Source of the DNA: a virus
Length of the DNA stretch: 64,000 nucleotides
Reading direction: 5' to 3' (one strand)
IMG/VR virus record: IMGVR_UViG_3300036766_000678
Coordinates: 116,417-180,416 of that record
Position 1 is the stretch's first letter. Every line of letters begins with the position of its first letter. The notes under the pieces are model-generated. The model saw only the letters and a program-made list of their open reading frames with translations. It was not told where the DNA came from and did not search any database. This document shows positions 5,823 through 64,000 of this stretch, one piece after another. Made by a program: the position numbers and the translations under genes.

Positions 5823-6473
5823 TTATTCCTCAACAATTCCCTTAAGCAAATTTCGAGCCTTATTCAAACTTGTTTCAACATTAAAATTCTTGATTTCATC
5901 CCATTCTTCATCTGTCAATTCTTTCTTAGGAGGTATTGCTTCCTCAGTAACATCGTGTAAAGAAGGCTGCTCTGGGATTTGTTCCCATTCTTTTTTAGGA
6001 ACATATTGATATTTTTTCTTTGGTTCTAAAGGAACATTAACTTGTTTTGGTTTTTGAACAGGTGCTTGCCTAACTCGTTTAGGAGCAACAGGAGTCTTTG
6101 TTTTTGGTGCATATTGTGGTGTTGAAATACTTGTGTCGGTGTTTCCATATGAATCAACACGAACATCAGACAAGTTTGGGCCAGAGACAATCAATGTACA
6201 ATTAATATCGCCTGGATGCGATTTTTCGAATAAGGGGGCCGAAAAATTTAAACCCCCTACAAAATCTTCTATATTCCACTTTTGACGATTTAGATCGACG
6301 CAACGTGAGTGCCTAGACGCGCCTGAGTCCCATTCTACAATCTGATACCCCTGGGAAGCTAAATCTTCCAATACTGGTAAGGACATATCCTGACGAGTAT
6401 TTCCTACAGCCTGTTTATTTAGCCTGTTTATTTTTTGAGCTTTTTCGGCTAGTTTTTCTTCCCAATTGGTCAT
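5823..6473 (-). CDS. Putative head-associated protein with MuF-like C-terminal pattern
   Basis: 216 aa, starting 2 nt upstream of the protease-scaffold gene. Residues 35-100 contain WDSGASRHSRCVDLN, then GGLNFSAPLFEKSHPGDINC. The order Cys...His-Pro...Cys resembles the end of Mu gpF-type minor head proteins, though no full domain is present. The middle is Pro/Lys/Val-rich (APKTKTPVAPKR, QKPKQVNVPLEPKKK) and probably disordered; the end is acidic. Its 5' end lies within the 3' end of the zinc miniprotein gene upstream. The function is inferred and uncertain; it is most likely a minor head or head-joining component. Confidence 0.6.
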   Translation of the reverse strand: MTNWEEKLAEKAQKINRLNKQAVGNTRQDMSLPVLEDLASQGYQIVEWDSGASRHSRCVDLNRQKWNIEDFVGGLNFSAPLFEKSHPGDINCTLIVSGPNLSDVRVDSYGNTDTSISTPQYAPKTKTPVAPKRVRQAPVQKPKQVNVPLEPKKKYQYVPKKEWEQIPEQPSLHDVTEEAIPPKKELTDEEWDEIKNFNVETSLNKARNLLKGIVEE

Positions 6474-6669
6474 ATTTTAGTTCCAAATATTCGAGATTAT
6501 CACTTGTTAAAAAATTAGGGCATTTACAATCAAAATTTGGTCTTGGATTACTTAGAATTTTTATCCACAAGCAGGGCTTCTTCCCTTTTCGTGAACAGGT
6601 AGCGTGATCAAAACGTGAATGCTTGCATGTTCGGCACCTATCTCTATTTGTTTCTTCTACTATTTGCAT
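6415..6669 (-). CDS. Zinc miniprotein with NLEYLE tail
   Basis: 84 aa from the ATG chosen here (CAGGG ribosome site, no overlap with the upstream stop); an upstream ATG would add 11 residues and create a 20-nt overlap. Zinc ligands: CRTCKHSRFDH, two single Cys, then CKC. The tail SDNLEYLELKYDQ is followed by a basic extension (GRKTSRKSSKNKQ) not seen in the other members, which is encoded in the 59-nt overlap with the next gene. Function unknown. Confidence 0.75.
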   Translation of the reverse strand: MQIVEETNRDRCRTCKHSRFDHATCSRKGKKPCLWIKILSNPRPNFDCKCPNFLTSDNLEYLELKYDQLGRKTSRKSSKNKQAK

Positions 6670-6682
6670 GTACCCTGAAAAA

Positions 6683-6895
6683 TTATATGTTTTGCTTATC
6701 ATAAAGGTACTCTAAATACTTCAAGTTCTCTTTAGGTAAAAATTCTGCACATTTACAAGCTAGAGTAAAATTCTTAAAAGCCATATAAATACATTTACCT
6801 GGTTTTTTATCCACATCAGTATGACTTAAAAAATAATGTTCACAATTCCTGCACAATTCGAAATTAAAAATATTCTTAATTCGTCTAATTGGCAT
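6683..6895 (-). CDS. Zinc miniprotein with NLEYLE tail
   Basis: 70 aa. Ligands CRNCEHYFLSH, a lone Cys, then CKC leading into FLPKENLKYLEYLYDK. It starts in a TAATG overlap with the stop of the upstream gene, so it is probably translated by coupling. The N-terminal MPIRRIKNIFNFE stretch is basic and specific to this copy. Function unknown. Confidence 0.8.
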   Translation of the reverse strand: MPIRRIKNIFNFELCRNCEHYFLSHTDVDKKPGKCIYMAFKNFTLACKCAEFLPKENLKYLEYLYDKQNI

Positions 6896-7152
6896 TATCT
6901 TCCAGGCTCATTGTACCCATGTTCAGCCAAAATCTTAGAAGCCATTTTAATTAAATTATAATTTTTATCTTTAACACTACGTTCAAATTGTTTAAATGCT
7001 TGTTCATTTTGAACAGCCATACGAGCACAATCTATAGAAAATCCCATAAGCTGTGTAAGCAAAGAACCCATTAATATCGGGATATTAAGCTCTTCTTGCC
7101 CATCAGATCCTACGATTAAATATTCATCTTCTTTTTTTGGTTTCTCTTGCAT
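6895..7152 (-). CDS. Hypothetical protein downstream of a conserved 54-bp promoter-like element
   Basis: 85 aa from the ATG with an AAGGTGG ribosome site; an in-frame GTG nine bases earlier is less likely. Acidic N-terminus (EKPKKEDEYLIVG), then an amphipathic helical stretch (IPILMGSLLTQLMGFSID) and a charged C-terminus. No known domain. It is the first gene after one copy of the 54-bp element, so it may be the leader gene of a late transcript that continues into the protease-scaffold gene. Confidence 0.7.
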   Translation of the reverse strand: MQEKPKKEDEYLIVGSDGQEELNIPILMGSLLTQLMGFSIDCARMAVQNEQAFKQFERSVKDKNYNLIKMASKILAEHGYNEPGR

Positions 7153-7199
7153 AATACCCACCTTATCTTATCCTTTTAATTAAGTTAAATGACTAAAAA

Positions 7200-7253
7200 A
7201 TCGTATATAAACAATATTCCCTATATACACCACTTTTAGTTATATTTTTACAT
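7200..7253 (-). promoter_or_regulatory. 54-bp conserved intergenic element, copy 1 (putative phage promoter)
   Basis: Read on the minus strand it begins ATGTAAAAATATAACTAAAA, identical in all three copies in the window, followed by an ungapped, less conserved half with TATATAGGG, AATATTGTTT and ATATACGAT. It ends about 47 nt before the ATG of the next gene. No TTGACA box lies at a proper distance, so recognition by a phage factor is more likely than by sigma70 alone. A second AGGTAATATTGTTT lies just upstream of this copy. Confidence 0.6.
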
Positions 7254-7276
7254 CAAAAACAATATTACCTACTACG

Positions 7277-8188: not shown

Positions 8189-8410
8189 TTATAAATTTTT
8201 ATTATACAAATATTCGAAATACTCAAGATTGGACATTGGAGTATAGAAATCACAAGGGCATTTCCCCGTTTGTGACCAGATACACCAAGATATAGCAGGT
8301 TTATCTTCTATAAGAATTCCTTGTTGGTAAGTTTCAATACTACCTAAATCTTTATGGTCTTCATAAGAATGATAACAATTACAAAGAAGATGTACTTTCT
8401 TTTCTTTCAT
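8189..8410 (-). CDS. Zinc miniprotein with NLEYLE tail
   Basis: 73 aa. Ligands LCNCYHSYEDH, a lone Cys, then CPCDFY. Tail MSNLEYFEYLYNK (Phe replaces the usual Leu of YLE). The middle is longer than usual and acidic (DLGSIETYQQG). First of four consecutive tail genes that overlap one another by 8-41 nt, downstream of the portal. Function unknown. Confidence 0.8.
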   Translation of the reverse strand: MKEKKVHLLCNCYHSYEDHKDLGSIETYQQGILIEDKPAISWCIWSQTGKCPCDFYTPMSNLEYFEYLYNKNL

Positions 8411-8624
8411 AACACCATTCCAAATACTCTAAATTATCTGATGGGATATATCTCAAACAAATACATCTATTAGTTCGACAAATTCTCCCCAAATATTCAC
8501 TATCTCTATGTTGATAATTTAGACAAGAAGTATTTTTAGAAGTATGCCAACTAGGAGAACATTTGCACGTCTTGCAAACACTATTAAAACGCTGATGGAT
8601 CTTTACTTCTTTCTTTTTTATCAT
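8379..8624 (-). CDS. Zinc miniprotein with NLEYLE tail
   Basis: 81 aa. Ligands CKTCKCSPSWH, a lone Cys, then CRTNRCICLRY. Tail SDNLEYLEWCYER, with extra KESTSSL. Its 3' end overlaps the next gene by 32 nt, so the tail codons and the downstream start are partly the same DNA. Function unknown. Confidence 0.8.
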   Translation of the reverse strand: MIKKKEVKIHQRFNSVCKTCKCSPSWHTSKNTSCLNYQHRDSEYLGRICRTNRCICLRYIPSDNLEYLEWCYERKESTSSL

Positions 8625-8928
8625 ATAAATGTTCTAAATATTCTAGGTTATCTTTTGGTGTATATTCTTTGCATTGGCAATTTACAAACGTAACTGCCCC
8701 CCAATCGGAAAATTCAACACACTGATCATTAAGGTGGGCATGATTACAATCTCTACATCTTTTGGTAGTAGGTATAATTGTGCTAGGGCTAGTTGTAGTA
8801 GTCGTATAAGTATAAGGATAAGGATTTGTATTGGGAGAATACGAAGGATCTATTCCAGTAGTTGTATTATAATTCCAAATAGGATTATTTGTTGCTAACA
8901 CATTAGCCGTTGTAACACTATTAAACAT
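8584..8928 (-). CDS. Zinc miniprotein with Thr/Pro/Tyr-rich N-terminus and NLEYLE tail
   Basis: 114 aa, the longest of the four-gene block. The first 55 residues are low-complexity (NPYPYTYTTTTTSPST) and probably disordered. The zinc module follows (CRDCNHAH, Cys, CQC), then KDNLEYLEHLYDK and a short polar end. The N-terminal spacer attached to an otherwise standard zinc-plus-tail unit suggests the unit is modular. Confidence 0.8.
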   Translation of the reverse strand: MFNSVTTANVLATNNPIWNYNTTTGIDPSYSPNTNPYPYTYTTTTTSPSTIIPTTKRCRDCNHAHLNDQCVEFSDWGAVTFVNCQCKEYTPKDNLEYLEHLYDKKERSKDPSAF

Positions 8929-9118
8929 TTATCTCTCCTTTTCGTTTCTTATCATATAAGTATTCTAGGTATTCTAAGTTATTTCTAGGTTCATAACCTA
9001 AACACTCAGAAGCACCATTTAAAAGTTTTGGGCAATAACAATGTATTGGAACATACTCACTCTCAGAATTTCCATAATAATGTAAACAATTACAATTTCT
9101 ACATGTACTTAAAAACAT
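8921..9118 (-). CDS. Zinc miniprotein with NLEYLE tail
   Basis: 65 aa. Ligands CRNCNCLHYY, HCYCP and a further Cys before the tail RNNLEYLEYLYDKKRKG. It starts in a TAATG overlap with the portal stop codon, so it is probably translated together with the portal. Function unknown. Confidence 0.8.
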   Translation of the reverse strand: MFLSTCRNCNCLHYYGNSESEYVPIHCYCPKLLNGASECLGYEPRNNLEYLEYLYDKKRKGEINV

Positions 9119-25995: not shown

Positions 25996-26193
25996 TCATT
26001 TAGATGTAACCTCTTTACTTACCTTTTGATTATAAATCCATTCTAAATACTGAAGATTTGTCATGGGGATATAAAAATCCATTATTTCAGGTGGTTCATC
26101 ATGTTGTCCTGGGCAAAAGAAAAACTCAGTATCATAATAAGGTATATGTTCTTCAATGTTATGTTTGCACCATTTACAAGGTCTTTTCTTCAT
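25996..26193 (-). CDS. Zinc miniprotein with NLEYLE tail
   Basis: 65 aa. Ligands CKWCKHNIEEH and a single later Cys (FFFCPGQH), so the zinc module is shorter than in most members. The tail IPMTNLQYLEWIYNQ is followed by KVSKEVTSK. Directly downstream of deoC with a 2-nt gap. Function unknown. Confidence 0.8.
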   Translation of the reverse strand: MKKRPCKWCKHNIEEHIPYYDTEFFFCPGQHDEPPEIMDFYIPMTNLQYLEWIYNQKVSKEVTSK

Positions 26194-26195: not shown

Positions 26196-27290
26196 TTACT
26201 TATTTCCAACCTTATCAATTGCATCTTTAATTTTAGCGTCTGTTTCTGGATCTTGAATCAAGATAAATCTAGCACAGCTAGGACAAAAGATACTAAATCT
26301 TTTAGAGGTATTTAACAATGATCCATCCTCCGCCCTATCGAAACCCATTGGTCTTTTATCAGCTTTGTCCTCTAAGAAATTTTCTCTGCACGTACTACAG
26401 TAAAAAGATTTGGGTATTAGTTTCTTATCTTTCTTACCAGGAACTTTAACTTCGTTAGCCTCTTTAACTTCTTTAAGAATCTCTGGGCTAATGGCTAAAG
26501 GACCCACTACTTCTTTTGTAGTTTCCTCTTCAATCTTAGCCATTTCTTTAAATTGTTCATCACTCATCTTAGGTATTTCATCCATCTTAGCTCTCCTTTG
26601 AAATTCTTCCATTATCTTAATACTGTTGCTAGTGCCTACTCTTGACGCTCCTGCTTCTATCATCATTTCTAGATCAATCAACGAACGAATTCCTCCACTG
26701 GCCTTAACCAATACGCCTGATCCTTTTACTTGATCGGCCATTAGTTTGACATATCGTGCTGTTTCTTTTGGCTCTAATTTTGCTAGGAAGCCAGTAGATG
26801 TTTTCACATATGAAAGACCTGTCTCTATAGCTAAATCACAACAATGTTTAATCTCATCGTCGGAGAGCAAGCCACATTCTAGTATTACTTTTAAAATAGG
26901 TTGAAACGTTGGTGCAGTTGGAATAGTTTTTCGTAATGTTTCAAACTCATGCTTTATTCGCAACCAATCACCCGTTTTTACAGCCGATATATTTAAAACA
27001 AAATCAAATTCAGTAGCCCCATCATTAAATGCTCGTTGCATCTCAGTTACTTTGGAATCTATATTAGAGATTCCATGAGGAAATCCTATTACCGAACAAA
27101 TTTTTATATTGACACTCATATCTGTATGAACATATGAATGTAACAAATTAGACACTAATGGAACATGGAAACTTGAAACACAGACACTGTGAAAATTCCA
27201 TTTAACTGCTTGACGGCACAAATCTGTATAATTTCCCAGAGGTGCGGAGGGAATAAGAAGCGTATGATCTATCAGACGATTAATTTCCAT
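26196..27290 (-). CDS. deoC: Deoxyribose-phosphate aldolase with C-terminal zinc extension
   Basis: 364 aa; the first 220 are a complete class I DERA. Lys163 in YVKTSTGF is the Schiff-base residue, Lys196 in VKASGGIR the proton relay and Asp96 in EFDFVLN the third active-site residue. DERA splits 2-deoxyribose-5-phosphate into glyceraldehyde-3-phosphate and acetaldehyde, so it could recycle host deoxynucleosides. The extra 140 residues are not part of normal DERA: an acidic linker, then CSTCRENF..CPSC, a zinc-ribbon pattern. deoC is rare in phages. It lies among tail-bearing miniprotein genes; the deoxyribosyltransferase-like gene at 56.4 kb could supply related substrates. Confidence 0.92.
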   Translation of the reverse strand: MEINRLIDHTLLIPSAPLGNYTDLCRQAVKWNFHSVCVSSFHVPLVSNLLHSYVHTDMSVNIKICSVIGFPHGISNIDSKVTEMQRAFNDGATEFDFVLNISAVKTGDWLRIKHEFETLRKTIPTAPTFQPILKVILECGLLSDDEIKHCCDLAIETGLSYVKTSTGFLAKLEPKETARYVKLMADQVKGSGVLVKASGGIRSLIDLEMMIEAGASRVGTSNSIKIMEEFQRRAKMDEIPKMSDEQFKEMAKIEEETTKEVVGPLAISPEILKEVKEANEVKVPGKKDKKLIPKSFYCSTCRENFLEDKADKRPMGFDRAEDGSLLNTSKRFSIFCPSCARFILIQDPETDAKIKDAIDKVGNK

Positions 27291-27477
27291 TATTCTTTTT
27301 ATAAATTTCCTCTAAATATTTTAAATTATCTGGAACATATTTGGGACATCGACATATCTCATCATGATAAAGTTTCCCACCACACCAATTTTCCCAGATC
27401 GGGGAACCAACTGATTCATGAAGTTTGGCTTCATGACTACACTTACAGGGGAAGTTTCTTTTCTTGATTGAATTCAT
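27280..27477 (-). CDS. Zinc miniprotein with NLEYLE tail
   Basis: 65 aa. Ligands FPCKCSHEAKLH, a lone Cys and CRC. Tail VPDNLKYLEEIYKK. It overlaps deoC by 11 nt at its 3' end and its own start is inside the tail codons of the next gene upstream. FPCxCxH openings are shared with the members at 36.6-37.0 kb. Function unknown. Confidence 0.8.
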   Translation of the reverse strand: MNSIKKRNFPCKCSHEAKLHESVGSPIWENWCGGKLYHDEICRCPKYVPDNLKYLEEIYKKNNGN

Positions 27478-27649
27478 ATAATTGTTCTAAATACAATAAA
27501 TTATCACCAGACGCAAAATTATCACAATGACAATCTACTTTTACATTTTCTAAATCATAAGAAAAAGAACATTTAATATTAGATGCTCTATTGTTAATCA
27601 AATGAAAATGTTTGCAGTTTCTGCATCTCCACTTATTTAGGTCAACCAT
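27443..27649 (-). CDS. Zinc miniprotein with NLEYLE tail
   Basis: 68 aa. Ligands CRNCKHFH, a lone Cys and CHC. Tail SGDNLLYLEQLYEF. The 35-nt overlap with the following gene covers the tail and seven residues after it. It starts 8 nt inside the upstream 46-aa gene. Function unknown. Confidence 0.8.
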   Translation of the reverse strand: MVDLNKWRCRNCKHFHLINNRASNIKCSFSYDLENVKVDCHCDNFASGDNLLYLEQLYEFNQEKKLPL

Positions 27650-37394: not shown

Positions 37395-37573
37395 TAATAT
37401 TTAATCTTATCTACTTTACTATTATAAAGCCATTCAAGATATTCAAGGTTAGTCATGCTCTCATACCAAACACATTTACATTTTTTATCTTCACAACGAT
37501 ATTTGGGATCTTTAGGGAAATACAGCATATGGTATTGTTTATGGCCACAAGTTTTACAGGGCATTTTAAACAT
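37394..37573 (-). CDS. Zinc miniprotein with NLEYLE tail
   Basis: 59 aa. Ligands MPCKTCGHKQYH, a lone Cys and CKCVWY. Tail SMTNLEYLEWLYNSK then VDKIKY. It directly follows the ClpP-like gene and ends where the third 54-bp element begins. An in-frame ATG three codons later is a possible alternative start. Function unknown. Confidence 0.75.
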   Translation of the reverse strand: MFKMPCKTCGHKQYHMLYFPKDPKYRCEDKKCKCVWYESMTNLEYLEWLYNSKVDKIKY

Positions 37574-37582: not shown

Positions 37583-38212
37583 TTAGAAATTGCACTTAGA
37601 AAGATTTTTAAGATTCTTCTTAGGAATGTTAATTACTTCGTGGGCTATGCCAGTAGATAAGCACTCTTCTGGAAAGAAGTAACGATTCAAACCAGTATTT
37701 AATAATGATAGCCATTCATCTTGACTTATTTTAGTACGAGAAGCATACCAAGAACTCCACCTCTGAAAATACTGTTTGTGCAAATCTGCTTCGGCGTTAA
37801 TTTGAGGAAGTGTTTGGCGTTCTAACATAGCTGACCCCGAATGTGCCATACAAACTGTATTTGGGTATAAAATTCTATGGTCACATGAAAGATAAATATC
37901 AAATGCTGCTGACATTGCTTTCCCAAAAACAACCCCAATAACAGGGACAGGACAAGTTAAAATAGCATCAACAACAGCTTGACCAGCCTCAATAGAACCT
38001 CCCTCGCTATGAAGAAGAAGCTTAATGGGCTTATTATTCTTCTGAGCTAACGTAGTAAGAGGTAAAACAACTCTTTCAATAACATCGTCTTTAATTTCTC
38101 CTGTTAAAAGAATTGTGCGATCTTTTAAAAGAGCTTGATAACTCTCAAAACAAAATTGATCGAACGGAGAAAATTGTGGTTGTTGTTCATTATCATTATC
38201 TTGTGGTTTCAT
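37583..38212 (-). CDS. ClpP-like serine protease
   Basis: 209 aa from the ATG behind GGAGAAG (MKPQDNDNEQ); an upstream ATG is a shadow in the preceding gene. The ClpP/crotonase fold is clear: HSEGGSIEAGQAV (oxyanion loop near 71), GKAMSAAFD with nucleophile Ser101, and CMAHSGS with His124. ClpP-family proteins in phages may act in prohead maturation or general proteolysis; here a separate prohead protease exists, so a degradative or regulatory role, perhaps with a host unfoldase, is more likely. It sits among NLEYLE-tail genes, which is notable if the tail were a degradation signal. Confidence 0.85.
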   Translation of the reverse strand: MKPQDNDNEQQPQFSPFDQFCFESYQALLKDRTILLTGEIKDDVIERVVLPLTTLAQKNNKPIKLLLHSEGGSIEAGQAVVDAILTCPVPVIGVVFGKAMSAAFDIYLSCDHRILYPNTVCMAHSGSAMLERQTLPQINAEADLHKQYFQRWSSWYASRTKISQDEWLSLLNTGLNRYFFPEECLSTGIAHEVINIPKKNLKNLSKCNF

Positions 38213-38477
38213 TTTTCTTCTCCAATTTCCCATATTTCCATTCAAGGAATTCTAAATTGTCTGGGTACTTTGATAGTAATCTGACATATGCACATAATTC
38301 ATTAACTATTCTTAAAGCTTGGTCAGTATTAAAAGTACCTTTACCATTACGTTCCCAACATCTAGATGCGAATCCTACAGCCAAATGCATATTCTCTACA
38401 TAATTTTCAGCATTCAATATTTGTGGTTTATTTTTATCATGGTCGAAGACTTCTCTTTCTTTTCTTAAATCAAACAT
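38196..38477 (-). CDS. Non-zinc protein carrying an NLEYLE tail
   Basis: 93 aa with only two cysteines, far apart, so no zinc module. The body (NAENYVENMHLAVGFASRC, TDQALRIVNELCAYVRLLSKY) looks like a small all-helical domain. The tail YPDNLEFLEWKYGKLEKK is of full quality, showing that the tail occurs without the zinc unit. Overlaps ClpP-like gene by 17 nt. Function unknown. Confidence 0.75.
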   Translation of the reverse strand: MFDLRKEREVFDHDKNKPQILNAENYVENMHLAVGFASRCWERNGKGTFNTDQALRIVNELCAYVRLLSKYPDNLEFLEWKYGKLEKKNETTR

Positions 38478-38718
38478 TGTTATTCCTATTATATTTCCAT
38501 TCTAAATAATGCAATGAATCTAATTTAAAATTCTCACAATCACAAGATTTTCTAGGGAATCCACCCCTTACTGAACAAGGATGTTTCTGTTCCTTATGCC
38601 CATCTAACCAACATCCAATATTATTTTCATTTTCCCACGTATCTTTAGTTAAATAACAAACATGTTCCCAAAGTGGATGTTTACAAAGGCATAGTGGTTC
38701 ATACTCTTGCTCTATCAT
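38470..38718 (-). CDS. Zinc miniprotein with NLEYLE tail
   Basis: 82 aa. Ligands PLCLCKHPLWEH, Cys in IGCWLDGH, Cys in HPCSVRG, then CDC. Tail KLDSLHYLEWKYNRN. The region between the Cys groups is longer than usual and has several His, so it may bind a second zinc. Function unknown. Confidence 0.8.
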   Translation of the reverse strand: MIEQEYEPLCLCKHPLWEHVCYLTKDTWENENNIGCWLDGHKEQKHPCSVRGGFPRKSCDCENFKLDSLHYLEWKYNRNNNV

Positions 38719-39011
38719 TAAAATTCATTTTCAAGCTTTTTAGCAAGTTCTGGATTCTGCTTACCATAGTTCTTACCACAGTTCTGACATGCTTTATTAA
38801 CTTCATCCAATGTTATCTCTTTACCAAGAGCTTGAGAAAATTTTACTGCAATATCGTCTTTGAGGCAACTAATTTGGCAGCAATCTTTACATATAGGGTT
38901 ATTATCTAGTATGGGACAGGGATGAAATAGGATGTGATTACCTTTATCACAAACGCATAAAGTACAAACATTTTCAAAATCATACAAATCTTTATTCGTG
39001 TCTTGATTCAT
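38718..39011 (-). CDS. Cys-rich hypothetical protein without the tail
   Basis: 97 aa with about eleven Cys: VCTLCVCDKGNH, HPCP, CKDCCQISC and CQNCGKNYG, enough for two zinc sites. The end (PELAKKLENEF) is helical but does not match the tail pattern. It is flanked on both sides by tail-bearing genes with 1- and 20-nt overlaps. Function unknown. Confidence 0.72.
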   Translation of the reverse strand: MNQDTNKDLYDFENVCTLCVCDKGNHILFHPCPILDNNPICKDCCQISCLKDDIAVKFSQALGKEITLDEVNKACQNCGKNYGKQNPELAKKLENEF

Positions 39012-39168
39012 ATAATCGTTCTAAATATTGAAGATTATCTAATTTAAAATCATGATAAGCTACTTCTTCCCCTTTAGACTGATAACAGCCAGAACAATAC
39101 ACATATAAATATAAATTATTATGATTGTTATAGCCATGCCCACAAATACATGGAGCATTATTTCCCAT
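38992..39168 (-). CDS. Zinc miniprotein with NLEYLE tail
   Basis: 58 aa from ATG (an in-frame GTG three codons earlier is less likely). Ligands PCICGHGYNNH and CSGC. Tail KLDNLQYLERLYESRHE. The zinc module is compact with only two Cys pairs. Function unknown. Confidence 0.78.
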   Translation of the reverse strand: MGNNAPCICGHGYNNHNNLYLYVYCSGCYQSKGEEVAYHDFKLDNLQYLERLYESRHE

Positions 39169-39271
39169 CAAGTTCACACCACCTATAGCTACAATCTATA
39201 CAAAGATATTCTCCATGAGCTATATAAATAGCTATGCCTTTACAACTTAAACAACGAATGTTAGAGGTCAT
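39158..39271 (-). CDS. 37-aa zinc-ribbon miniprotein
   Basis: Two Cys pairs, CLSC and CIDC, 17 residues apart, as in a minimal zinc ribbon; ends YRWCELDGK. Overlaps its neighbours by about 11 nt on each side, which fits the packing of the cluster. No tail. Function unknown. Confidence 0.6.
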   Translation of the reverse strand: MTSNIRCLSCKGIAIYIAHGEYLCIDCSYRWCELDGK

Positions 39272-41389: not shown

Positions 41390-41863
41390 TTATTTTATCC
41401 TTTTATTCTTTTTATGTTTCTTATCATATTCATTTTCTAAATATTCGAGGTTATCACGATCTTCTGGTTTGGCACATACATTACAGCTACAGTAATACCA
41501 ACCCTGTCCACGAATTTTACCTGGGGTTCCACATGTCTCGCAAGTTGTTATTGATTTCTTTTCTGCGTCTCTTTCAATTTTGTCAAACCCTGGGGGATAC
41601 GTGGTAAAATATAAGCGGAGCCCACCAAATTTTTCCTTTATCTGTGAAAATCGTGGCATCCAATCTCTATCTGCATTTGGATTGTCTTTAAGCCATTTTT
41701 TAATCAAAGGTTCAGCTTTTTGACAGGCATCATGGATAATTTGGTACCAACCATCATTACATTCGCAACCAAATCCCATAAGAGATTGTGTTAATGGTTT
41801 ATTAACATCCCCAAAACATAGAGGAAAATCTTTAACTAATTGTTTTTCTAATTCATTCCTCAT
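41390..41863 (-). CDS. KEKFGGLR-family phage protein with an appended NLEYLE tail
   Basis: 157 aa. The first 130 residues belong to a common phage family of unknown function: FGCECNDGWYQIIHDAC, then IKEKFGGLRLYF, then CETCGTPGKIRG..WYYCSC. Members usually end soon after the last Cys group. Here the sequence continues with KPEDRDNLEYLENEYDKKHKKNK, a full-quality tail. This is the clearest case of the tail being attached to an unrelated domain. Its start overlaps the upstream zinc protein gene by 4 nt. Confidence 0.8.
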   Translation of the reverse strand: MRNELEKQLVKDFPLCFGDVNKPLTQSLMGFGCECNDGWYQIIHDACQKAEPLIKKWLKDNPNADRDWMPRFSQIKEKFGGLRLYFTTYPPGFDKIERDAEKKSITTCETCGTPGKIRGQGWYYCSCNVCAKPEDRDNLEYLENEYDKKHKKNKRIK

Positions 41864-42052: not shown

Positions 42053-42517
42053 TTATCTCCTCACAATATTCTTTACATTATCTACTATAAGTTTGCCGAG
42101 GCAGTGATCTATTTCATGTTGTACTATACGACTATCGAAGCCATCAAATCGAAATTGAACTTTTTCTCCATTAAGTAATTGACCTTCAACTTCTACAATT
42201 TTATATCTTTTCACTCTAACAGAAATACCAGGACTGCTCAAGCAGCCTTCTACTTGAGTATCCTTATCCTTCTTACTATATCTGATAATCCTTAAATTTG
42301 CAAGTATCATTTGTTTAGTTTTATTCTCAACACTAAGAATACAAAGATTCTTATTTACTCCAATCTGTGGTGCGGCCAATCCTACGCCATGATTAATTAT
42401 CATTGTTTCTAACATGTCTTGAACTAACTGATTTAGCTCTTCACTATTAAAATTAGTAACCAGTTCTGTTGGTTTATGCAATACTGGATCTGTAAAGAGC
42501 CTAATGGGTCTCAGCAT
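42053..42517 (-). CDS. def: Peptide deformylase
   Basis: 154 aa with all three catalytic motifs: GVGLAAPQIG at 44-53, EGCLSS at 90-95 (Cys ligand) and QHEIDH at 133-138 (two His ligands and the catalytic Glu). It removes formyl groups from new proteins using a bound metal. Length is close to bacterial Def and to phage-encoded deformylases of marine viruses. In phages it is thought to help processing of viral or host proteins. Its start lies inside the tail codons of the upstream miniprotein gene. Confidence 0.95.
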   Translation of the reverse strand: MLRPIRLFTDPVLHKPTELVTNFNSEELNQLVQDMLETMIINHGVGLAAPQIGVNKNLCILSVENKTKQMILANLRIIRYSKKDKDTQVEGCLSSPGISVRVKRYKIVEVEGQLLNGEKVQFRFDGFDSRIVQHEIDHCLGKLIVDNVKNIVRR

Positions 42518-42671
42518 ATAAATATTCTAAATAAGCTAAATTTCCGCAGGGACGGTAGTTATAGCAACAGCTAATGCCATCTGTTGGGCAACTTGTACAA
42601 TACATAGAAAAAGAATCATACTTTTCATGTTCTTCAAACTTACAGCCACATTCACACGGTCTTTTTATCAT
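42501..42671 (-). CDS. Zinc miniprotein with NLEYLE tail
   Basis: 56 aa. Ligands CECGCKFEEH, CTSC, CC and a further Cys. Tail CGNLAYLEYLYAETH, where the tail ends only three residues after the LY. Stop codon is 17 nt inside the deformylase gene. Its start codons overlap the tail of the gene upstream (RPCECG follows directly). Function unknown. Confidence 0.75.
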   Translation of the reverse strand: MIKRPCECGCKFEEHEKYDSFSMYCTSCPTDGISCCYNYRPCGNLAYLEYLYAETH

Positions 42672-42840
42672 ATAGATATTCTAGATATTCTAAATTAGAT
42701 AGTGGAATATAAAACATACTATCTTTTTCACAATTTGTTCCAGTGTCTGGAAAACACCAGTTTGCGGCATTGAAACTGGGACCTCCGATTAGACAGTGCT
42801 TCTTTAATAATTGGTTACAATTTTTACAAGGTCTTTCCAT
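42652..42840 (-). CDS. Zinc miniprotein with NLEYLE tail
   Basis: 62 aa. Ligands RPCKNCNQLLKKH, then Cys in WCFPDTG and NCEKDS. Tail IPLSNLEYLEYLYDKKTV, close to the most typical form. Shares one base with the upstream gene's stop. Function unknown. Confidence 0.8.
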   Translation of the reverse strand: MERPCKNCNQLLKKHCLIGGPSFNAANWCFPDTGTNCEKDSMFYIPLSNLEYLEYLYDKKTV

Positions 42841-43250
42841 TATAATAGATTCTGGTCCTTGAAATCAGTTATGGACTCAAGGTAGTTGAGATTGTCCAAA
42901 AATTCGAATTCAACATTAGTTAATATGATCTCTGGTAATTCTGTTGTAAGCCATTTCCCTATATTTGTTATTTTAATAAATCTCATACCATCTTTAAAAT
43001 CCACACTCAATGGATGATTTTGAATAAGCAAGGGTGTTTTAACTAAAGCATCGTAAAGTGGATTAGTATTATTTCCATCAATTGTAATTTGCCCTACTGC
43101 GCTCAATATATCTTTCTCCCCTTCTATACCGTTATGCCGCCAACCACCTACAACAAATGCCCAATCAATTGTGAAATGCCCCTGAGTAATGGGATCATGT
43201 CCTTGAACGGGTTGCTTGAAATACTTATTATCTATGTCTCTTTTGATCAT
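42840..43250 (-). CDS. Non-zinc hypothetical protein with a tail-like C-terminus
   Basis: 136 aa, no cysteine. The body looks beta-rich (HFTIDWAFVVGGWRHNGIEG, ILSAVGQITIDGNNT). The end FEFLDNLNYLESITDFKDQ keeps DNLxYLE but replaces the usual LY with IT. This suggests a tail attached to a different fold, or an independent resemblance. Function unknown. Confidence 0.68.
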   Translation of the reverse strand: MIKRDIDNKYFKQPVQGHDPITQGHFTIDWAFVVGGWRHNGIEGEKDILSAVGQITIDGNNTNPLYDALVKTPLLIQNHPLSVDFKDGMRFIKITNIGKWLTTELPEIILTNVEFEFLDNLNYLESITDFKDQNLL

Positions 43251-45527: not shown

Positions 45528-46162
45528 TTATCTTCCCCAAGCATCTGATTAAATAACAAAGGTCTCACATCTCCACCTCTCACTTCAATAAAACTAAAAT
45601 TCTCAAATATCTTAGAGGTAGCAGTAGCCCCAAAGGTTTGCTCAAACGCTTCTGGTGTCAGGTTACTTGTATAAATAGTAGGTAACATTTCCTCTCTGCG
45701 ATACATCATAAGGGCAATAAGCTCTGCCTTGTCCCTGTGAGGGCTAGAAGAGAGTGCCCAGGGTGAAACATCATCCAATAGGAGAAATGGGGCTGTTTCG
45801 ACCATTTCCTTCGCTTTCTTGGCATCCTGAGCAAAGGTATCAACACAAAACTTGAGGTAATTGAAAAAAGAAGTAGAAACGATTTGAGTTATTTTAACCT
45901 GTTCAGTATTACCTTCTCTAGTATAAGTCAGCCTGGGTCCTTTTACTTGCTTTAAAATATAGTATCCAAGGGCTGTTTTTCCTGTTCCATTCTCTTTAGA
46001 ATAAATATAAAGGTTATGGCCTTCTCTTTCTACTTTGGGAAGATTGTTAACATAAAGATTTACTTTGTCTTTAATCTCTTGAAGATTATCTGCTCCAACC
46101 ATTTCTTCAAGTTCAAAGTGCTCATACAAGGGTCTAATATTTGTTTTAACGAGATTAAGCAT
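45524..46162 (-). CDS. DnaC-like AAA+ helicase loader
   Basis: 212 aa. Walker A YSKENGTGKTA at about 54-64, Walker B PFLLLDDVS at 125-133, and a sensor-1 TSN at 165-167. The combination is typical of DnaC/DnaI-type ATPases that place the replicative helicase on DNA; phage versions are of this size. No helicase is in the window. The preceding 90-aa gene overlaps it by 8 nt and may be a co-loader. Confidence 0.85.
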   Translation of the reverse strand: MLNLVKTNIRPLYEHFELEEMVGADNLQEIKDKVNLYVNNLPKVEREGHNLYIYSKENGTGKTALGYYILKQVKGPRLTYTREGNTEQVKITQIVSTSFFNYLKFCVDTFAQDAKKAKEMVETAPFLLLDDVSPWALSSSPHRDKAELIALMMYRREEMLPTIYTSNLTPEAFEQTFGATATSKIFENFSFIEVRGGDVRPLLFNQMLGEDK

Positions 46163-46427
46163 TAGCAGATCCTATCTCTTTCAAATGTTCCAAATAAGTA
46201 AGATTGTCAATAATTCCTTCCATCAAAACAAATTCTAGATAAGTTCTTATATATTTGTCTGTATACTTACCCAATTTAAATTGTTCTATTTTATCTTTTA
46301 TCATAGATTTACTAAAAGTTTTTCTATATTCTTTTTCATATGTAACTTCTGGAGGATACCCAGGATGCCCTTTCATGTTATCCGGCAGTGGTATATTTAC
46401 TGAAGTAGCCGCACCACTATTATCCAT
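46155..46427 (-). CDS. Possible helicase-loader partner with a tail-like end
   Basis: 90 aa, no Cys. A polar start (GAATSVNIPLPDNMKGHPGYP) then a basic helical body (FSKSMIKDKIEQFKLGKYTD). Ends IIDNLTYLEHLKEIGSANA: the DNLxYLE core is kept and LY is replaced by LK. Overlaps the DnaC-like gene by 8 nt. Function inferred only from the neighbour. Confidence 0.65.
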   Translation of the reverse strand: MDNSGAATSVNIPLPDNMKGHPGYPPEVTYEKEYRKTFSKSMIKDKIEQFKLGKYTDKYIRTYLEFVLMEGIIDNLTYLEHLKEIGSANA

Positions 46428-48419: not shown

Positions 48420-49124
48420 TTAATACCTCTCATTATAACATTTCTCTAAATACTCAAGTTTACTAATCTTATTTTCTTTCATTAATTTTTCTTTATCTTT
48501 AAATTCTTCCTGTGTAACTTCTTGTCCGTGAAGAACATAAATACCTGTGCTATCTCTAAATTTGATTGCATAATCTGAAGCATTGTGAGTATAACCTTCA
48601 TTATCTATATGAAATTCTAATGGATGATCTATTAAAATAACTAATCCTTTAAGGATAACAAAATAAGAACATTCAAGCATATCTATCCACAAATTTAATT
48701 TATGATTATCTTCTGCTGAATACTTAAGATATAATACTTTCCTTCCATATTCATAAAACCCAACCCAAGAAGAATAAAATTGCCCTGGCCAAAGATTGTT
48801 CCAAAGATTGTTCTCAAGATTGTTCTCAAGATTGTTCCAAAGATTGTTCCAAAGATTGTTCCTAAGATTGTTCTCAAGATTGTTCCTAAGATTGTTCCAA
48901 AGATTGTTCTCAAGATTGTCCTTTTTAATTAAATTAATTAATTCGATGGGGCTATTAACCCAAACACACTTAGGTTCATTTTCATTAATTAACTTGTACA
49001 TTTCTTTGACAGCTTTTTCTGCAATAAGCCGGTTAGCGGGTTGGGTAGATAAGCCTTTCTTTAAATAAAACTGATAATATTCTTTTACTTGTTGTTCTTG
49101 TTCGATAGTTAATTTATTAATCAT
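48420..49124 (-). CDS. DUF6745-like protein with NNL(W/E/R) repeats and a tail-like end
   Basis: 234 aa. Helical start, then eleven tetrapeptide units of the type NNLW/NNLE/NNLR at about residues 70-113, then a globular part: YSSWVGFYEYGRKV, CSYFVILKGLVILIDHPLEF, HIDNEGYTHN and GIYVLHGQEVTQEEF. The order repeat, aromatic block, xHxDxxGxxHN, IYxxHGxxV is that of DUF6745 proteins found in bacteria and phages; function unknown. The end KISKLEYLEKCYNERY matches the tail pattern and is not a normal part of the family. Its start is overlapped by the next upstream gene. Confidence 0.75.
   Translation of the reverse strand: MINKLTIEQEQQVKEYYQFYLKKGLSTQPANRLIAEKAVKEMYKLINENEPKCVWVNSPIELINLIKKDNLENNLWNNLRNNLENNLRNNLWNNLWNNLENNLENNLWNNLWPGQFYSSWVGFYEYGRKVLYLKYSAEDNHKLNLWIDMLECSYFVILKGLVILIDHPLEFHIDNEGYTHNASDYAIKFRDSTGIYVLHGQEVTQEEFKDKEKLMKENKISKLEYLEKCYNERY
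48793..48924 (-). repeat. Eleven 12-bp tandem repeats inside the DUF6745-like gene
   Basis: A 12-bp unit, read as AACAATCTT plus TGG, GAG or AGG, occurs eleven times in a row with almost no third-position change. Coding is kept in frame (12 is divisible by 3), so copy number can vary without breaking the protein. The near identity suggests recent slippage. Confidence 0.85.
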
Positions 49125-59434: not shown

Positions 59435-59829
59435 TGTCTACTTCTCTCCTTTTCTTTCATCTCTAGATAGGCTCTAGAAATGGCCTCTGAAGCTGTTTTT
59501 CCATATTCACTACAATCCCCCATCATGCAACACCATCCCCCTTCAGGATAAGCAATCAAACTCCAATTGCTAAATCCCATATCTCTGCCTATATAATTTG
59601 ACATGTGGGTATGAGCATATTTTCTAACAATCCTCCAAGCATCATTCATATCTTCAACAAAATTAGGTATTGGCCGCTTTGTAGGCTGAGATGTATTAGA
59701 CGTTTTAAAATATTCCTGATAATCACACTCAGGAGGTATGCCAATTGTTTGGCCATTAAAAGACATAATCTCAGTCCAACCCCATTCTTTTGCTACTTGA
59801 ATATTAAGCTCTTCCAGTTCGAGATTCAT
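59431..59829 (-). CDS. Phage ABA-sandwich domain protein
   Basis: 132 aa. LNIQVAKEWGWTEI, DMNDAWRIVRKYA, and TASEAISRAYLEMKEKE fit the phage ABA sandwich family (helix with GW, then AWxVVxK, then a C-terminal AIxxAxL helix). Family members are common in phages with no known role. Internal NWSLIAYPEGGWCCMMGD is the central sheet. Confidence 0.72.
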   Translation of the reverse strand: MNLELEELNIQVAKEWGWTEIMSFNGQTIGIPPECDYQEYFKTSNTSQPTKRPIPNFVEDMNDAWRIVRKYAHTHMSNYIGRDMGFSNWSLIAYPEGGWCCMMGDCSEYGKTASEAISRAYLEMKEKERSRQ

Positions 59830-59977
59830 ATAATTGTTCTAAATATTTAAGATTATCTGATTTAAATACCATACAATCACAGTCAAAACAATAGTATAAT
59901 TTATTTGTACTAAAATTTTCTGATTTTTGATGTCTAAATCTCAAATGATTACATTTACATGGGTCAAGATGAATCAA
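59804..59977 (-). CDS. Zinc miniprotein with NLEYLE tail, TTG start
   Basis: 57 aa. The only in-frame start in reach is TTG, overlapping the RNA-ligase stop as TTGA. Ligands PCKCNHLRFRH and CFDCDC. Tail KSDNLKYLEQLYESR then TGRA. Codons overlap the ABA-sandwich gene by 26 nt. The unusual start suggests translation depends on ligase translation. Function unknown. Confidence 0.7.
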   Translation of the reverse strand: MIHLDPCKCNHLRFRHQKSENFSTNKLYYCFDCDCMVFKSDNLKYLEQLYESRTGRA

Positions 59978-61122
59978 ATTTTTGTTACACCAGTTACATG
60001 TTCAATTTCTTCTATCACTTTACAAATATGTTTTCTATTTAAATCTTTCTTATCAAACAATTGAAAAAGAAATCCTCTTAAATACTTTTCCACATTTTTA
60101 TTCGTCCACATAGCGAATTCTTTTCTAGAATCCTTTGGAGCGTCTGCATATCTACTATAGCACTCTTCCTGTAAATTTACAACCCTCTTTTCAAAATAAT
60201 CAATTTTAGCCAAAACTTCATCTTTGTATTCTTCTGGGCAAACAGATTTAAGATCATTAAAAGTATTGTTACCTACTGCTTGAAGAATGTTTCTATCCGA
60301 TAAATTAGAAATAAACCTATGCAATTCTAAATATTTTGGCCCTTTAATTTTAATAAGCAGTTCTGGTTCCCATCTCAGTACGAATCCTTCATCTAGAATA
60401 CCCAAATTCTTGCTTGTTTCTATCAAATGATCCAAGGACTCAAACTGATAGGTTTTAACGCAAGGAAGGCCCAGTTCCATGGCAAGAGAAGCCACTTCTG
60501 CGTAGGTTAACAATTTTCCTTCCCATGTTCGATAACCGATTAAATATAACCCCTCAGCGTAATTTTTTTTCTTGTAATCAATAACAATACGAAATCTAGA
60601 GTCAATTAGTTCAAATATCAATGTGCCTTTGCTTGCATATTCTAGTATCTTATCAGCTTGAACTTGGTTTCTGCTCATTCCAACTGTCAACTTTTTAAAT
60701 AAAAATGTGCCTTCTTTTCCATGTTCACTGTCAAAAGAGCCTGTAGTAGTAAGATAAAACTGGTTGTCGTTTGGATTCAAAAACGATATCAGACAAGATC
60801 CATCAAGTTTCTCAGATATCTCAAATTCCTTCTGATCCTTTAGGATTGCATAATTCGTCTCAGGCATCTGTCCAAGATTGAAGAACTTGTCAAATCCATG
60901 TGATAATATAACTTGATTCTTCACATCTACAACGAGCCCACGACTGAAACGAGAGAATGTTGTCCACAAATTATCATATTGGCATTCGTCTTTGTATTTT
61001 AAAAGAACTAATCCAGGAAAACGTTCAGATTCCGAAACCCAAACAGCATTATGCTCACAATGCTGCTTAAGCTTATCTATATTCCAAAGCTCGTTGATCT
61101 TAAAATAGGATTCAGGAGTCAT
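59974..61122 (-). CDS. T4 Rnl1-like RNA ligase
   Basis: 382 aa. The adenylated lysine is Lys105 in SEKLDGSCLISF (motif I KxDGS). Preceding it are SRFSRGLVVD and FDKFFNLGQ, hallmarks of the Rnl1 group; later blocks include TLIFELID (motif IIIa), EGFVLRWEP (motif IV) and IKIKGPKYLELH (motif V). It joins 3'-OH to 5'-phosphate RNA ends using ATP, and in T4 rescues tRNAs cut by host anticodon nucleases. An HD-kinase in this window could prepare those ends. It begins in an ATGA overlap with a tail-bearing gene. Confidence 0.93.
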   Translation of the reverse strand: MTPESYFKINELWNIDKLKQHCEHNAVWVSESERFPGLVLLKYKDECQYDNLWTTFSRFSRGLVVDVKNQVILSHGFDKFFNLGQMPETNYAILKDQKEFEISEKLDGSCLISFLNPNDNQFYLTTTGSFDSEHGKEGTFLFKKLTVGMSRNQVQADKILEYASKGTLIFELIDSRFRIVIDYKKKNYAEGLYLIGYRTWEGKLLTYAEVASLAMELGLPCVKTYQFESLDHLIETSKNLGILDEGFVLRWEPELLIKIKGPKYLELHRFISNLSDRNILQAVGNNTFNDLKSVCPEEYKDEVLAKIDYFEKRVVNLQEECYSRYADAPKDSRKEFAMWTNKNVEKYLRGFLFQLFDKKDLNRKHICKVIEEIEHVTGVTKI

Positions 61123-61310
61123 TTATGTTTGGCCTCATACAATTGTTCTAAGTATTTAAGATTATCTAATTTAAATTTGTAACATAAACATAAATTAATC
61201 AGAAGTGGGTATCTGCAATCATTATCTACTATACTTTCTAATAGGGGATATTTTTTATTTCGATGCTCTAAATCTCTATGACCACATACACAAAACAAAT
61301 CATTCATCAT
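61119..61310 (-). CDS. Zinc miniprotein with NLEYLE tail
   Basis: 63 aa starting at one of two adjacent ATGs (MMNDLFCVCGH). Ligands FCVCGHRDLEH, Cys in NDCRY and CLCYKF. Tail KLDNLKYLEQLYEAKHK, nearly identical to the copy downstream of the ligase; together they bracket the ligase gene. Function unknown. Confidence 0.8.
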   Translation of the reverse strand: MMNDLFCVCGHRDLEHRNKKYPLLESIVDNDCRYPLLINLCLCYKFKLDNLKYLEQLYEAKHK

Positions 61311-61857
61311 CAAAATTAAACCTTCTTTTCTTTCTCTTTGCTTTCTTTTTAGCTTTAATGGGATGTTTTTCAATCCAATCTTTCATCAGTTTCTTTTTTT
61401 GGTTGACAATACTCAGGTAGTCGATGTTGTCAGCAGTTACGAGAAAAATGGAACACATAACCTTATTTTTTGTGGCAATGCGTTCCCCAACATGCGAAAT
61501 GAGATATGGGAATTGGGCATCTCCAACGCGCACTATGATGGGGAAATTCTCCCATTCAACCGTTGTGAAATTAGACCAACTTGCATGAGGCTTCAATACC
61601 ATATCCTCAAATTGGGCTCTGATATTTCGAACACGCAGCCATTTTTTAAGTGCCCGTTTTGAATCTTCCGCAGCATAAGCTGTTGTTTTTTCCCCTGTCA
61701 CAGCATTGATAATCTCTACTTTGACACGATTAGGTACAGGAAACACTTTGCCCCAAGAACGTCTTCGCCGCCTGGAACCAGGCATACGCATCCAACGTTT
61801 ACGCTGATTCGTAGAAAGACGAAGAAACAGCTTCTGAGCCCGAATTGATTTAGTCAT
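61300..61857 (-). CDS. Basic hypothetical protein
   Basis: 185 aa, strongly basic at both ends (GSRRRRRSWGKVF; KKAKRKKRRFNFDDE). Middle seems globular with GEKTTAYAAEDSKRALKKW and ENFPIIVRVGDAQFPYLISH. It includes TADNIDYLSIVNQ, which loosely resembles the tail but lies inside the protein. Likely a nucleic-acid binder. No family recognised. Confidence 0.68.
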   Translation of the reverse strand: MTKSIRAQKLFLRLSTNQRKRWMRMPGSRRRRRSWGKVFPVPNRVKVEIINAVTGEKTTAYAAEDSKRALKKWLRVRNIRAQFEDMVLKPHASWSNFTTVEWENFPIIVRVGDAQFPYLISHVGERIATKNKVMCSIFLVTADNIDYLSIVNQKKKLMKDWIEKHPIKAKKKAKRKKRRFNFDDE

Positions 61858-61987: not shown

Positions 61988-62534
61988 CTTCTGGTTCTCC
62001 ATTTACATTGCCTAAAGCAGCATCAATTTTATCCGAGATCTGTTGAGCCGTATTCTCAATTACTTGTGCTTTAATTTCAGCTTTTAAATCTTCTGTTTCA
62101 ATAGTATCAAATAATGGCTCATCTTCAGTTACTTCCACAGTAGATGAAATATCTTTGTTGATTGCCCGAAGCTTTTTTTGTTTTTGTCTACCCTTTTCCA
62201 ACCATTTAAGAGATTTTTCCCTATCTCGTTTCTTTTTGTTTCTGGCATAAAGCCAAGTAGAAAATCCTGTTCCTGCAATCTTTCCCAAAGTATATAACAC
62301 ATAAGGTATCAATTTAAAATAATTATGGATTCCAGAATGCCAAGTTTCCCAAAATTGAATAAGTACACCGAAAAGAAATACGTACATAAAAAAATCAATA
62401 ACCTGATTGAGCGTACTATATAAAATTGTACTCCACAGCTTTAGCCTCACGGAAACCAATTTTTCCCAGGTATCCAAATGCCATTCCGCAGCCCCAACAA
62501 GAAAAAATATAATTGAAAGTTCAAATGTTGTCAT
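61947..62534 (-). CDS. Membrane protein with coiled cytoplasmic tail
   Basis: 195 aa. Three or four hydrophobic spans in the first 95 residues (SIIFFLVGAAEW, NQVIDFFMYVFLFGVLIQFW, YFKLIPYVLYTLGKIAG), then a basic region (ARNKKKRDREKSLKWLEK) and an acidic tail with a helical run (ETEDLKAEIKAQVIENTAQ). Phage-encoded membrane protein of unknown role; the lysis gene upstream makes a lysis or envelope role possible. Confidence 0.68.
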   Translation of the reverse strand: MTTFELSIIFFLVGAAEWHLDTWEKLVSVRLKLWSTILYSTLNQVIDFFMYVFLFGVLIQFWETWHSGIHNYFKLIPYVLYTLGKIAGTGFSTWLYARNKKKRDREKSLKWLEKGRQKQKKLRAINKDISSTVEVTEDEPLFDTIETEDLKAEIKAQVIENTAQQISDKIDAALGNVNGEPEDANKENHNNQTSS

Positions 62535-62752
62535 TTTACCTTTTGCTTCTGTTCATACAGTTTTTGCAAGTATTCTAAATTTCCAAACTTAAAATAATGA
62601 TAACTATCTAAATTAATACTCTTACTAAAAGATGATAATTTCTCAGCACATGCCCAACAAATAGATTTAAAATTCTTACTTACATTATTTCTAACTTCAT
62701 GATCTGCTTTCCAATGCCCACATCTGCACTTGTCTGTACTTAAAGCCTCCAT
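62531..62752 (-). CDS. Zinc miniprotein with NLEYLE tail
   Basis: 73 aa from the ATG in the TAATG overlap with the transglycosylase stop. Ligands KCRCGHWKADH and CWAC. A longer polar spacer (SSFSKSINLDSYHYFK) separates zinc site and tail FGNLEYLQKLYEQKQ. It has Gln in place of the YLE glutamate. Function unknown. Confidence 0.78.
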   Translation of the reverse strand: MEALSTDKCRCGHWKADHEVRNNVSKNFKSICWACAEKLSSFSKSINLDSYHYFKFGNLEYLQKLYEQKQKVK

Positions 62753-63336
62753 TATTTTAAAGGCAACACTGAATCCACTTTCTCTTTTCTCTTCAAAAAA
62801 GCTTTCCAATACTTTTCACTCCATTTACCATTCTTTAAGCGAACAACACCATTGTATGCTATAATAGCTTTCTTATAATCTTTCCATCGTTGATATTTCC
62901 CACTCAAAACTCTAAAAGCCATTTTAGTATTAGTATTAACCCCATAAAAGTATTTTTTAACTCCATATGCTTCAAATTCATCTGGCATAATTTGAAAAAT
63001 ACCTTTTTCTCCAGAAGTTCCTTCCTCGAATTGTCTAAATTCTGATTCAAGCCAAGCCATGGCGATAAAATCATTTCTAGTAAAGGGTCCATTGGGGAAA
63101 AACTTTGGCATATTCAAATCAATAGCTTTGAGCATTTGTATAACAACTTCTTTGTTTACTTTAGTTTTTTCTTTCAAAAGAAGTTGGCTTAAAACAATAG
63201 CTTGTCCTTCATAAGTAAGATTTTCATGCAATTCCGTCGCTTCAGAATAAGACCGCACTCTAATAGATGCATCTTCCCCAATAATAAGAGAAGGAGTAAA
63301 CAAAATAAGACTAAGAAAAGCTAATTTAAATTTCAT
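62752..63336 (-). CDS. Secreted SLT lytic transglycosylase (endolysin-like)
   Basis: 194 aa from MKFKLAFLSL, giving a signal peptide ending near IIGEDA. The lysozyme-like fold is recognised by AMAWLESEF with catalytic Glu97, the EKGIFQIMP strand and KKAIIAYNGVV. Soluble lytic transglycosylases cleave peptidoglycan; with an export signal it could act as a lysis enzyme or a virion-entry factor. It is far from the virion cluster, so lysis is favoured. Confidence 0.85.
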   Translation of the reverse strand: MKFKLAFLSLILFTPSLIIGEDASIRVRSYSEATELHENLTYEGQAIVLSQLLLKEKTKVNKEVVIQMLKAIDLNMPKFFPNGPFTRNDFIAMAWLESEFRQFEEGTSGEKGIFQIMPDEFEAYGVKKYFYGVNTNTKMAFRVLSGKYQRWKDYKKAIIAYNGVVRLKNGKWSEKYWKAFLKRKEKVDSVLPLK

Positions 63337-63524
63337 TTTATTATCCCAGTTGGATAGCATTTTTTATGTCTAATATAATCTCCTATACGAATATAGTCGA
63401 TACCAGAAATTGTTTTAAAAAAATTAACCTGCTTACCACAATAGAGACAATTCTGGCACCAAGGCTTGCCGTCTACTGTGAAAACTGGTTTCTTTTGACC
63501 TTCTGTCAAATTATTCAAATCCAT
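63333..63524 (-). CDS. Small zinc-binding protein after a strong promoter
   Basis: 63 aa. WCQNCLYCGKQVNFFK and a later HKKCYP give a C-C-C-H/C zinc site, like a rubredoxin-type knuckle. GGGAGG site 6 nt before ATG. ATGA overlap with the transglycosylase gene. No tail. Function unknown. Confidence 0.72.
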   Translation of the reverse strand: MDLNNLTEGQKKPVFTVDGKPWCQNCLYCGKQVNFFKTISGIDYIRIGDYIRHKKCYPTGIIK

Positions 63525-63545
63525 TTTATCCTCCCTCTTTGTATA

Positions 63546-63574
63546 AGTATATCAGAAGTTGAATAAAAAGTCAA
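63546..63574 (-). promoter_or_regulatory. Sigma70-type promoter (TTGACT-17-TATACT)
   Basis: TTGACT, 17 bp ending CTGA, TATACT, then TATACAAAGAGGGAGG and ATG of the zinc protein gene. The -10 region TCTGATATACTT is identical to that at 27.8 kb. It would drive the zinc protein and transglycosylase genes. Confidence 0.75.
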
Positions 63575-63615
63575 GGGCTATTTTTCTAAAATCGCATCTA
63601 TTTTACGCACTGCTT

Positions 63616-64000
63616 TTACCTCTTTTTCTTTAGTTTATTCTTTAATTCATCCATAGCGGATAAAAACTCTAAATTATTTAATACTTCAATATCAAGGGAA
63701 ACAACAAAATAAGGCCCCTTCACCCCATCCCAATATTCTTGTTCAGTAATTTCAAATATTTTAAAATAACACTTAGCTTTGTTCTTCTTAATAATCCGCC
63801 TAAAGTAGCTTGATTTTAATTTCGCAGTTTGATCAAAAAGAATAATATCTCCTATTTGAAATTTATTTTTGTATCGCACAGGAACAACAATACATTCTCT
63901 TGATTTATGCCCAAAATAAAAAGGGCTTGGAGGAACAAATCGAACAGAGAAATAACATCCTTTTACTCGTGTATTATTTCGAAAATTCAAAAGAGTATTT
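63616..64000 (-). CDS. Hypothetical protein with tail-like end (5' end outside window)
   Basis: The frame is open to the right edge and shows no ATG, so the start lies beyond it; a TTG ten bases from the edge is a less likely start. The body has beta-barrel character (GCYFSVRFVPPSPFYFGHKS, FQIGDIILFDQTAKLKSSYF). The end EVLNNLEFLSAMDELKNK keeps NNLEFL but not LY, so it is a weak tail match. Function unknown. Confidence 0.65.
   Translation of the reverse strand, partial: NTLLNFRNNTRVKGCYFSVRFVPPSPFYFGHKSRECIVVPVRYKNKFQIGDIILFDQTAKLKSSYFRRIIKKNKAKCYFKIFEITEQEYWDGVKGPYFVVSLDIEVLNNLEFLSAMDELKNKLKKKR

Follow-up and report, generated by a model that had tools for sequence, protein, structure and literature searches.

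The window analysed here is a 64,000-nucleotide stretch (positions 116,417–180,416) of a 180,416-base IMG/VR virus record, and it carries a family of small genes whose proteins end in the same short peptide, which we call the tail. The source genome is that of a tailed phage with nearly all of its genes on one strand. Its terminase has its best cultured match in Bacillus phage G (30% identity), and the record also encodes a portal, a prohead-protease homologue, DnaB, a DNA polymerase, a UvsX/RecA-like recombinase and a DnaC-like loader. All open reading frames (ORFs) were scored with a 13-column position-specific scoring matrix of the tail, and those above 12 bits were taken as carriers. Twenty-five carriers were detected in the window, all on the minus strand between 6415 and 62809, of which 20 are zinc miniproteins of 56–114 amino acids (aa) and 5 are other proteins. 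An earlier note on this DNA had counted at least 24 genes with the tail, about twenty of them zinc miniproteins of 55–115 aa, and both counts were reproduced. About 46 tail-bearing ORFs were found in the whole 180-kb contig.

The conserved core of the tail is [DNTS]-N-L-x-[YF]-L-E. The subsequent L-Y-[DNE]-[KR], which the earlier note had included in the shared peptide, varies much more, apart from the cases in which the next gene takes its start codon from it. The core is a C-terminal element: 278 of 285 matches are no more than 35 residues away from the stop, and 7 of 285 are internal, two of these in contigs outside the clade. The YLE core is followed by a median of 9 residues, and the distance from motif to C-terminus ranges from a few to about 28 residues.

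The tail was then compared across 24 contigs, all of them metagenomic, some short, and none from a cultured member of the clade. A DNA pattern encoding NLxx[YF]LE matched 43 times on the coding strand of the 180,416-bp record and once on the other strand, and the reversed pattern gave 3 and 1 matches. In related contigs the pattern was found 49 versus 0 times (G017), and 27 (G005), 20 (G003), 18 (G004), 16 (G002) and 13 times (G010). With the tail profile, 260 coding-strand ORFs of the 24 contigs scored above 12 bits, whereas antisense and reversed decoys gave none. The strand, reversed, antisense and shuffled controls ruled out chance or composition as the source of the tail. The earlier note had proposed counting the genomes with five or more tails; at least five carriers were present in 10 of the 24 records. 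The larger contigs encode about 20 to 68 tailed proteins each, and in seven contigs roughly 9–34% of the non-overlapping ORFs bear the tail. Its frequency depends on ORF length, with 37% of the 60–79-aa ORFs carrying it versus 0 of 168 ORFs of at least 300 aa. A search of the published literature for the tail peptide returned eight text matches that were all unrelated by title, and they were judged to be chance strings.

Six zinc carriers of the window lie between 6415 and 9118, all on the minus strand as above. The first (6415..6702, tail SDNLEYLELKYDQ) belongs to the head module, in the portal–p216 interval, and the second (6683..6895, ENLKYLEYLYDK) is the carrier with the widest conservation, with a group present in 12 records. 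They are followed by 8189..8410 (SNLEYFEYLYNK), by 8379..8624 (DNLEYLEWCYER), whose tail contains the first ATG of the next gene, by a Ser/Thr-rich zinc protein (8584..8928, DNLEYLEHLYDKK; group in 7 records), and by 8921..9118 (NNLEYLEYLYDKK), which adjoins the portal. A trypsin-like protease with a signal peptide/lipobox-like start is encoded among these head-module carriers (7515–8180, minus strand). The portal ORF itself (1329 aa, 9118–13107, minus strand) contains two intein-like insertions, at about residues 80–487 and 670–1017, the second of which has HNH matches.

The remaining zinc miniproteins are located at 25996..26193 (TNLQYLEWIYNQK, a Cys-poor member), 27280..27477 (DNLKYLEEIYKK), 27443..27649 (DNLLYLEQLYEF), 36585..36779 (DNLKYLEEKYNK), 36757..37071 (diverged tail DNLAFFKQIYER), 37077..37322 (DNLKYLEKKYEEK), 37394..37573 (TNLEYLEWLYNSK), 38470..38718 (DSLHYLEWKYNR), 38992..39177 (DNLQYLERLYESR), 42501..42671 (GNLAYLEYLYAE), 42652..42840 (SNLEYLEYLYDKK), 59804..59977 (DNLKYLEQLYESR), 61119..61373 (DNLKYLEQLYEAK) and 62531..62809 (GNLEYLQKLYEQK). 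The five non-zinc carriers are a 93-aa protein (38196..38477, DNLEFLEWKYGK), a 157-aa 'IKEKFGGLRLYF' protein (41390..41863, DNLEYLENEYDKK), a 136-aa protein with a predicted beta fold whose final helix is the tail (42840..43250, DNLNYLESITDFK), a 90-aa protein adjoining the DnaC-like helicase loader (46155..46427), which has the weak tail DNLTYLEHLKE (13.9 bits) and for which an ortholog was found, and a 234-aa protein (48420..49124, SKLEYLEKCYNER) with tandem NNLE/NNLW repeats upstream of its tail. One further minus-strand ORF (63616..63990, NNLEFLSAMDEL) scored only 10.4 bits; it is probably a chance resemblance and was left out of the count.

Cys pairs are present in 226 of 269 carriers. 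This is in line with an alternative in which the tail is the last helix of one zinc fold, multiplied through ordinary paralogy without any shared receptor, the non-zinc carriers being fusions or zinc proteins that have lost their cysteines. The fixed spacing of 7–8 residues from the last Cys points the same way for the zinc carriers, as does the confident helix that AlphaFold2 places after the zinc core. However, a profile trained on zinc carriers alone detected 58 carriers above 14 bits among the 1,178 ORFs other than four-Cys miniproteins, some of the 58 being Cys-poor zinc relatives, and detected none among 3,534 shuffles and 2,781 internal segments. Since such ORFs were found by this profile and none in the controls, the tail is more than the end of one zinc domain. 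The earlier note would have given up the idea of a module if the profile hit that domain only, and unrelated folds were seen to carry the tail as well. Above 16 bits, 31 carriers have at most two Cys ahead of the tail and 11 have none. When the tails were removed, the carrier bodies clustered into 118 groups, 98 of them singletons.

Individual families gave the same picture. A 132-aa carrier of contig G017 is a member of phrog_3972 (E 3e-31), with matches in 254 phage records, and its homologues in Streptococcus phage Javan308, a Lactococcus phage, a T5-like phage and a viral contig (L155) have no tail. In phrog_28969, the protein of coliphage slur01 stops before the tail, and the two clade orthologs have the tail or a diverged form of it. 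The homologue of the 157-aa protein in another uncultured phage (L132) also stops before the tail; its clade orthologs have the C-terminal extension, from exact (DNLEYLENEYDKK) to diverged (DGLEIVEEAYNK). One ortholog of this protein (G005 6363, L096) is split by an intein-like insertion. Conversely, several zinc miniproteins of the same clade are tail-less. The tail and the zinc domain are thus separable in both directions. Zinc domains without the tail, and PHROG families and a beta fold that keep the tail, including its polar N and E, with no zinc domain, speak against the single-fold explanation, as does the retention of the tail by non-zinc orthologs: in the pair G005_13516/G010_14750 the proportion of nonsynonymous differences (pN) was 0.04 in the tail versus 0.33 in the body. 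We therefore regard that explanation as unlikely, although for the zinc carriers as a class it may still hold, given their fixed spacing. Scans by protein found no relatives of two non-zinc carriers, probably because exact 8-mers were required, and the zinc carriers had no profile match above the cut-off among the zinc families of Pfam and PHROGs.

The ratio of pN to the proportion of synonymous differences (pN/pS) was 0.23 for the tail versus 0.40 for the bodies in 89 ortholog pairs, which are non-independent and have saturated synonymous sites. In the tail codons pS was about 0.79 and all six Leu codons were in use, while the peptide was retained. These codon comparisons indicate that the tail is under purifying selection at the protein level, stronger than that on the bodies. 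Protein-level selection had been claimed in the earlier note and was confirmed; a tail dN/dS near 1, named there as evidence to the contrary, was not observed. An origin of the tail as a mobile DNA repeat was unsupported, because its codons are diverse.

Many tails overlap the next gene; each gene was taken to begin at its first start codon, and individual assignments are uncertain. For 68 of 253 carriers, the downstream gene has its first ATG at Y9-[D/E/N/G] of the tail. A downstream start 10 nt or more within the preceding gene was seen for 45% of carriers, versus 8% of the remaining gene pairs. Position Y9 is Tyr in 90% of the cases where the next gene starts there and in 36% elsewhere, with Ser and Ala common. 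Carrier arrays such as that at 8379–8928 illustrate the arrangement, in that the next genes often start at the TATGA of Y-[D/E] inside the upstream tail. These overlaps could mean that the motif is kept at the DNA level, because it provides the following gene with its start codon and ribosome-binding site. Against this, conservation of the core NLx[YF]LE is just as strict whether or not the next gene starts at Y9, and synonymous sites of the tail are saturated. A Shine-Dalgarno sequence in the tail was present at only 6% of these overlapping starts versus 63% of genes generally, and GGAG was also rarer (3% versus 12%); the tail DNA thus does not act as a ribosome-binding site. An origin of the core in translation signals was thus rejected and we hold the DNA-level explanation of the motif to be very improbable. 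It was accepted as a partial cause of Y[DE]: that end of the motif is partly a start-codon effect, of which the core is independent.

Two carriers were modelled with AlphaFold2. In the zinc carrier (6683..6895), the tail lies in a C-terminal helix at residues 57–69 with block means of 84–88, the whole model having 76. In the beta carrier (42840..43250), it lies in a helix at residues 120–133 (predicted template-modelling score, pTM, 0.72, with three sequences only). The models thus predict that the tail forms a terminal helix, and they do so for two different folds. Searches of the PDB and of viral structures with the modelled carriers and the tail gave no significant match. The best structural matches of the beta carrier were phage tail tubes and baseplates (E about 0.02–0.1), too weak for naming it.

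Among known systems, the closest C-terminal analogue is found in T4 gp43, gp55 and gp33, whose interchangeable hydrophobic and acidic C-termini bind the sliding clamp (PMC2988020). The tail resembles them in being a transferable hydrophobic and acidic C-terminal motif on unrelated proteins, and it may likewise serve to dock proteins on the machinery of replication or transcription. But the T4 set comprises three proteins including the polymerase, whereas dozens of small proteins carry the tail, none of the 168 ORFs of at least 300 aa has it, and it is missing from the ends of the two DNA polymerases read (G000 and G002), so that a clamp motif shared with the polymerase was not found. The T4 motifs also lie at the extreme C-terminus, and not a median of 9 residues ahead of it. 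Docking to this machinery is in our judgement quite improbable. Degradation was also considered. A second, ClpP-like head-maturation-protease homologue is encoded outside the head module (37583–38245, minus strand), directly between two carriers, and the tail could be a degradation signal for such a protease. The variable spacing between motif and C-terminus argues against this, and so do the best matches of the ClpP homologue, which are head maturation proteases; we find a role in degradation scarcely credible.

The T4 internal proteins are highly diverse and share only a capsid-targeting sequence (CTS) (PMC3012670), an N-terminal propeptide of 10–20 residues (PMC5694885). The family described here is similar in that one short peptide is common to diverse, otherwise unrelated small phage proteins. 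It differs in that the CTS is N-terminal and removed by the prohead protease whereas the tail is C-terminal, and in that about 20 to 68 proteins per larger contig have the tail, most of them with zinc motifs. The tail proteins are thus not members of the T4 CTS family, given the opposite position, and a likeness in packaging would be one of analogy. Small CxCGHxxxxH zinc proteins of actinophages have a similar Cys/His core (tblastn E 0.3–6; weak Foldseek matches), but these matches are non-significant and the aligned part ends ahead of the tail.

Tails were found in most contigs with 62–72% TerL identity where enough sequence exists. Sister lineages with 33–50% TerL identity, including contigs of 126, 100 and 62 kb, gave background counts only, and one or two copies each were present in unrelated contigs picked up by the DNA pattern. 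The strict tail pattern had no matches in genome contigs, and no relatives in bacterial genomes were found by TerL or by this pattern. Judged from these sequences, tails in number appear to be confined to one clade, or to contigs sharing its tagged families. Within the clade, the portal–p216 interval contains one to six carriers in all 12 contigs that cover the region; the prohead protease follows this interval in the ten contigs that include it, and eleven contigs show TerL ahead of the portal. The carrier group present in 12 records is one of those in this interval, head-module genes are among the three groups of widest conservation, and most groups beyond the widest ones were found in at most 5 records. 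The conserved head-gene synteny, the restriction to one clade and the overlapping start codon at Y[DE] go beyond the earlier note.

Two other sequence families were noticed in the record. A zinc motif, FCxxGHDTxIxGR, defines a separate expansion of ten ORFs, three of them in the window (545–1111, 15643–16500 and 31748–32557), and occurs repeatedly within a single protein in several of the ten. The proteins of 1114–5820 and 7277–7513 (minus strand) have a similar N-terminus, LxKIGSS[WY]K.

A tag for docking or targeting is the best explanation of a peptide that is transferable, under selection and C-terminal on small proteins of unrelated kinds. We consider it probable that the tail is such a tag, a helix read by one shared receptor and spread by recombination. 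Of the earlier note's reading, selection on the protein and a module on several folds are borne out, and the common docking partner or sorting/degradation signal that it suggested stays a proposal. One lineage of large phages would add the short helix [DNTS]-N-L-x-[YF]-L-E with a Lys-rich end to small proteins, whose bodies would be fast-turning-over accessory proteins. A single common receptor would read the tag, which may have spread through recombination in the overlapping gene arrays. Several observations weigh against this. Pfam, PHROGs and the PDB gave no match that would point to a receptor of the tail, and the clade is known from metagenomic sequence, with no cultured member. In 150 of about 220 zinc carriers the tail lies 7–8 residues past the last Cys, as for an integral part of the fold. 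The hydrophobic moment of the helix was not above that of shuffled sequences (0.290 versus 0.287), and amphipathicity was thus dropped as proof of a helix face. Most carriers also lie outside the head module, which makes packaging a guess.

If the docking tag exists, the receptor may be the prohead or its core, with the tagged miniproteins being packaged and delivered with the DNA. The prohead is the leading candidate because of the conserved head-module synteny and the analogy to the T4 internal proteins; this is the most likely specific version, and taken by itself we still hold it to be doubtful. A genome-wide C-terminal addressing system, in which dozens of interchangeable miniproteins and captured domains are directed to a single receptor, for example for loading a set of injectable effectors into the capsid, is a conjecture with a real but minority chance of being right. 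In large phages, small genes of unknown function are numerous, and finding the receptor would give dozens of them a common destination. Should the tail serve for packaging, T4's CTS would have a C-terminal counterpart, useful for loading proteins into capsids.

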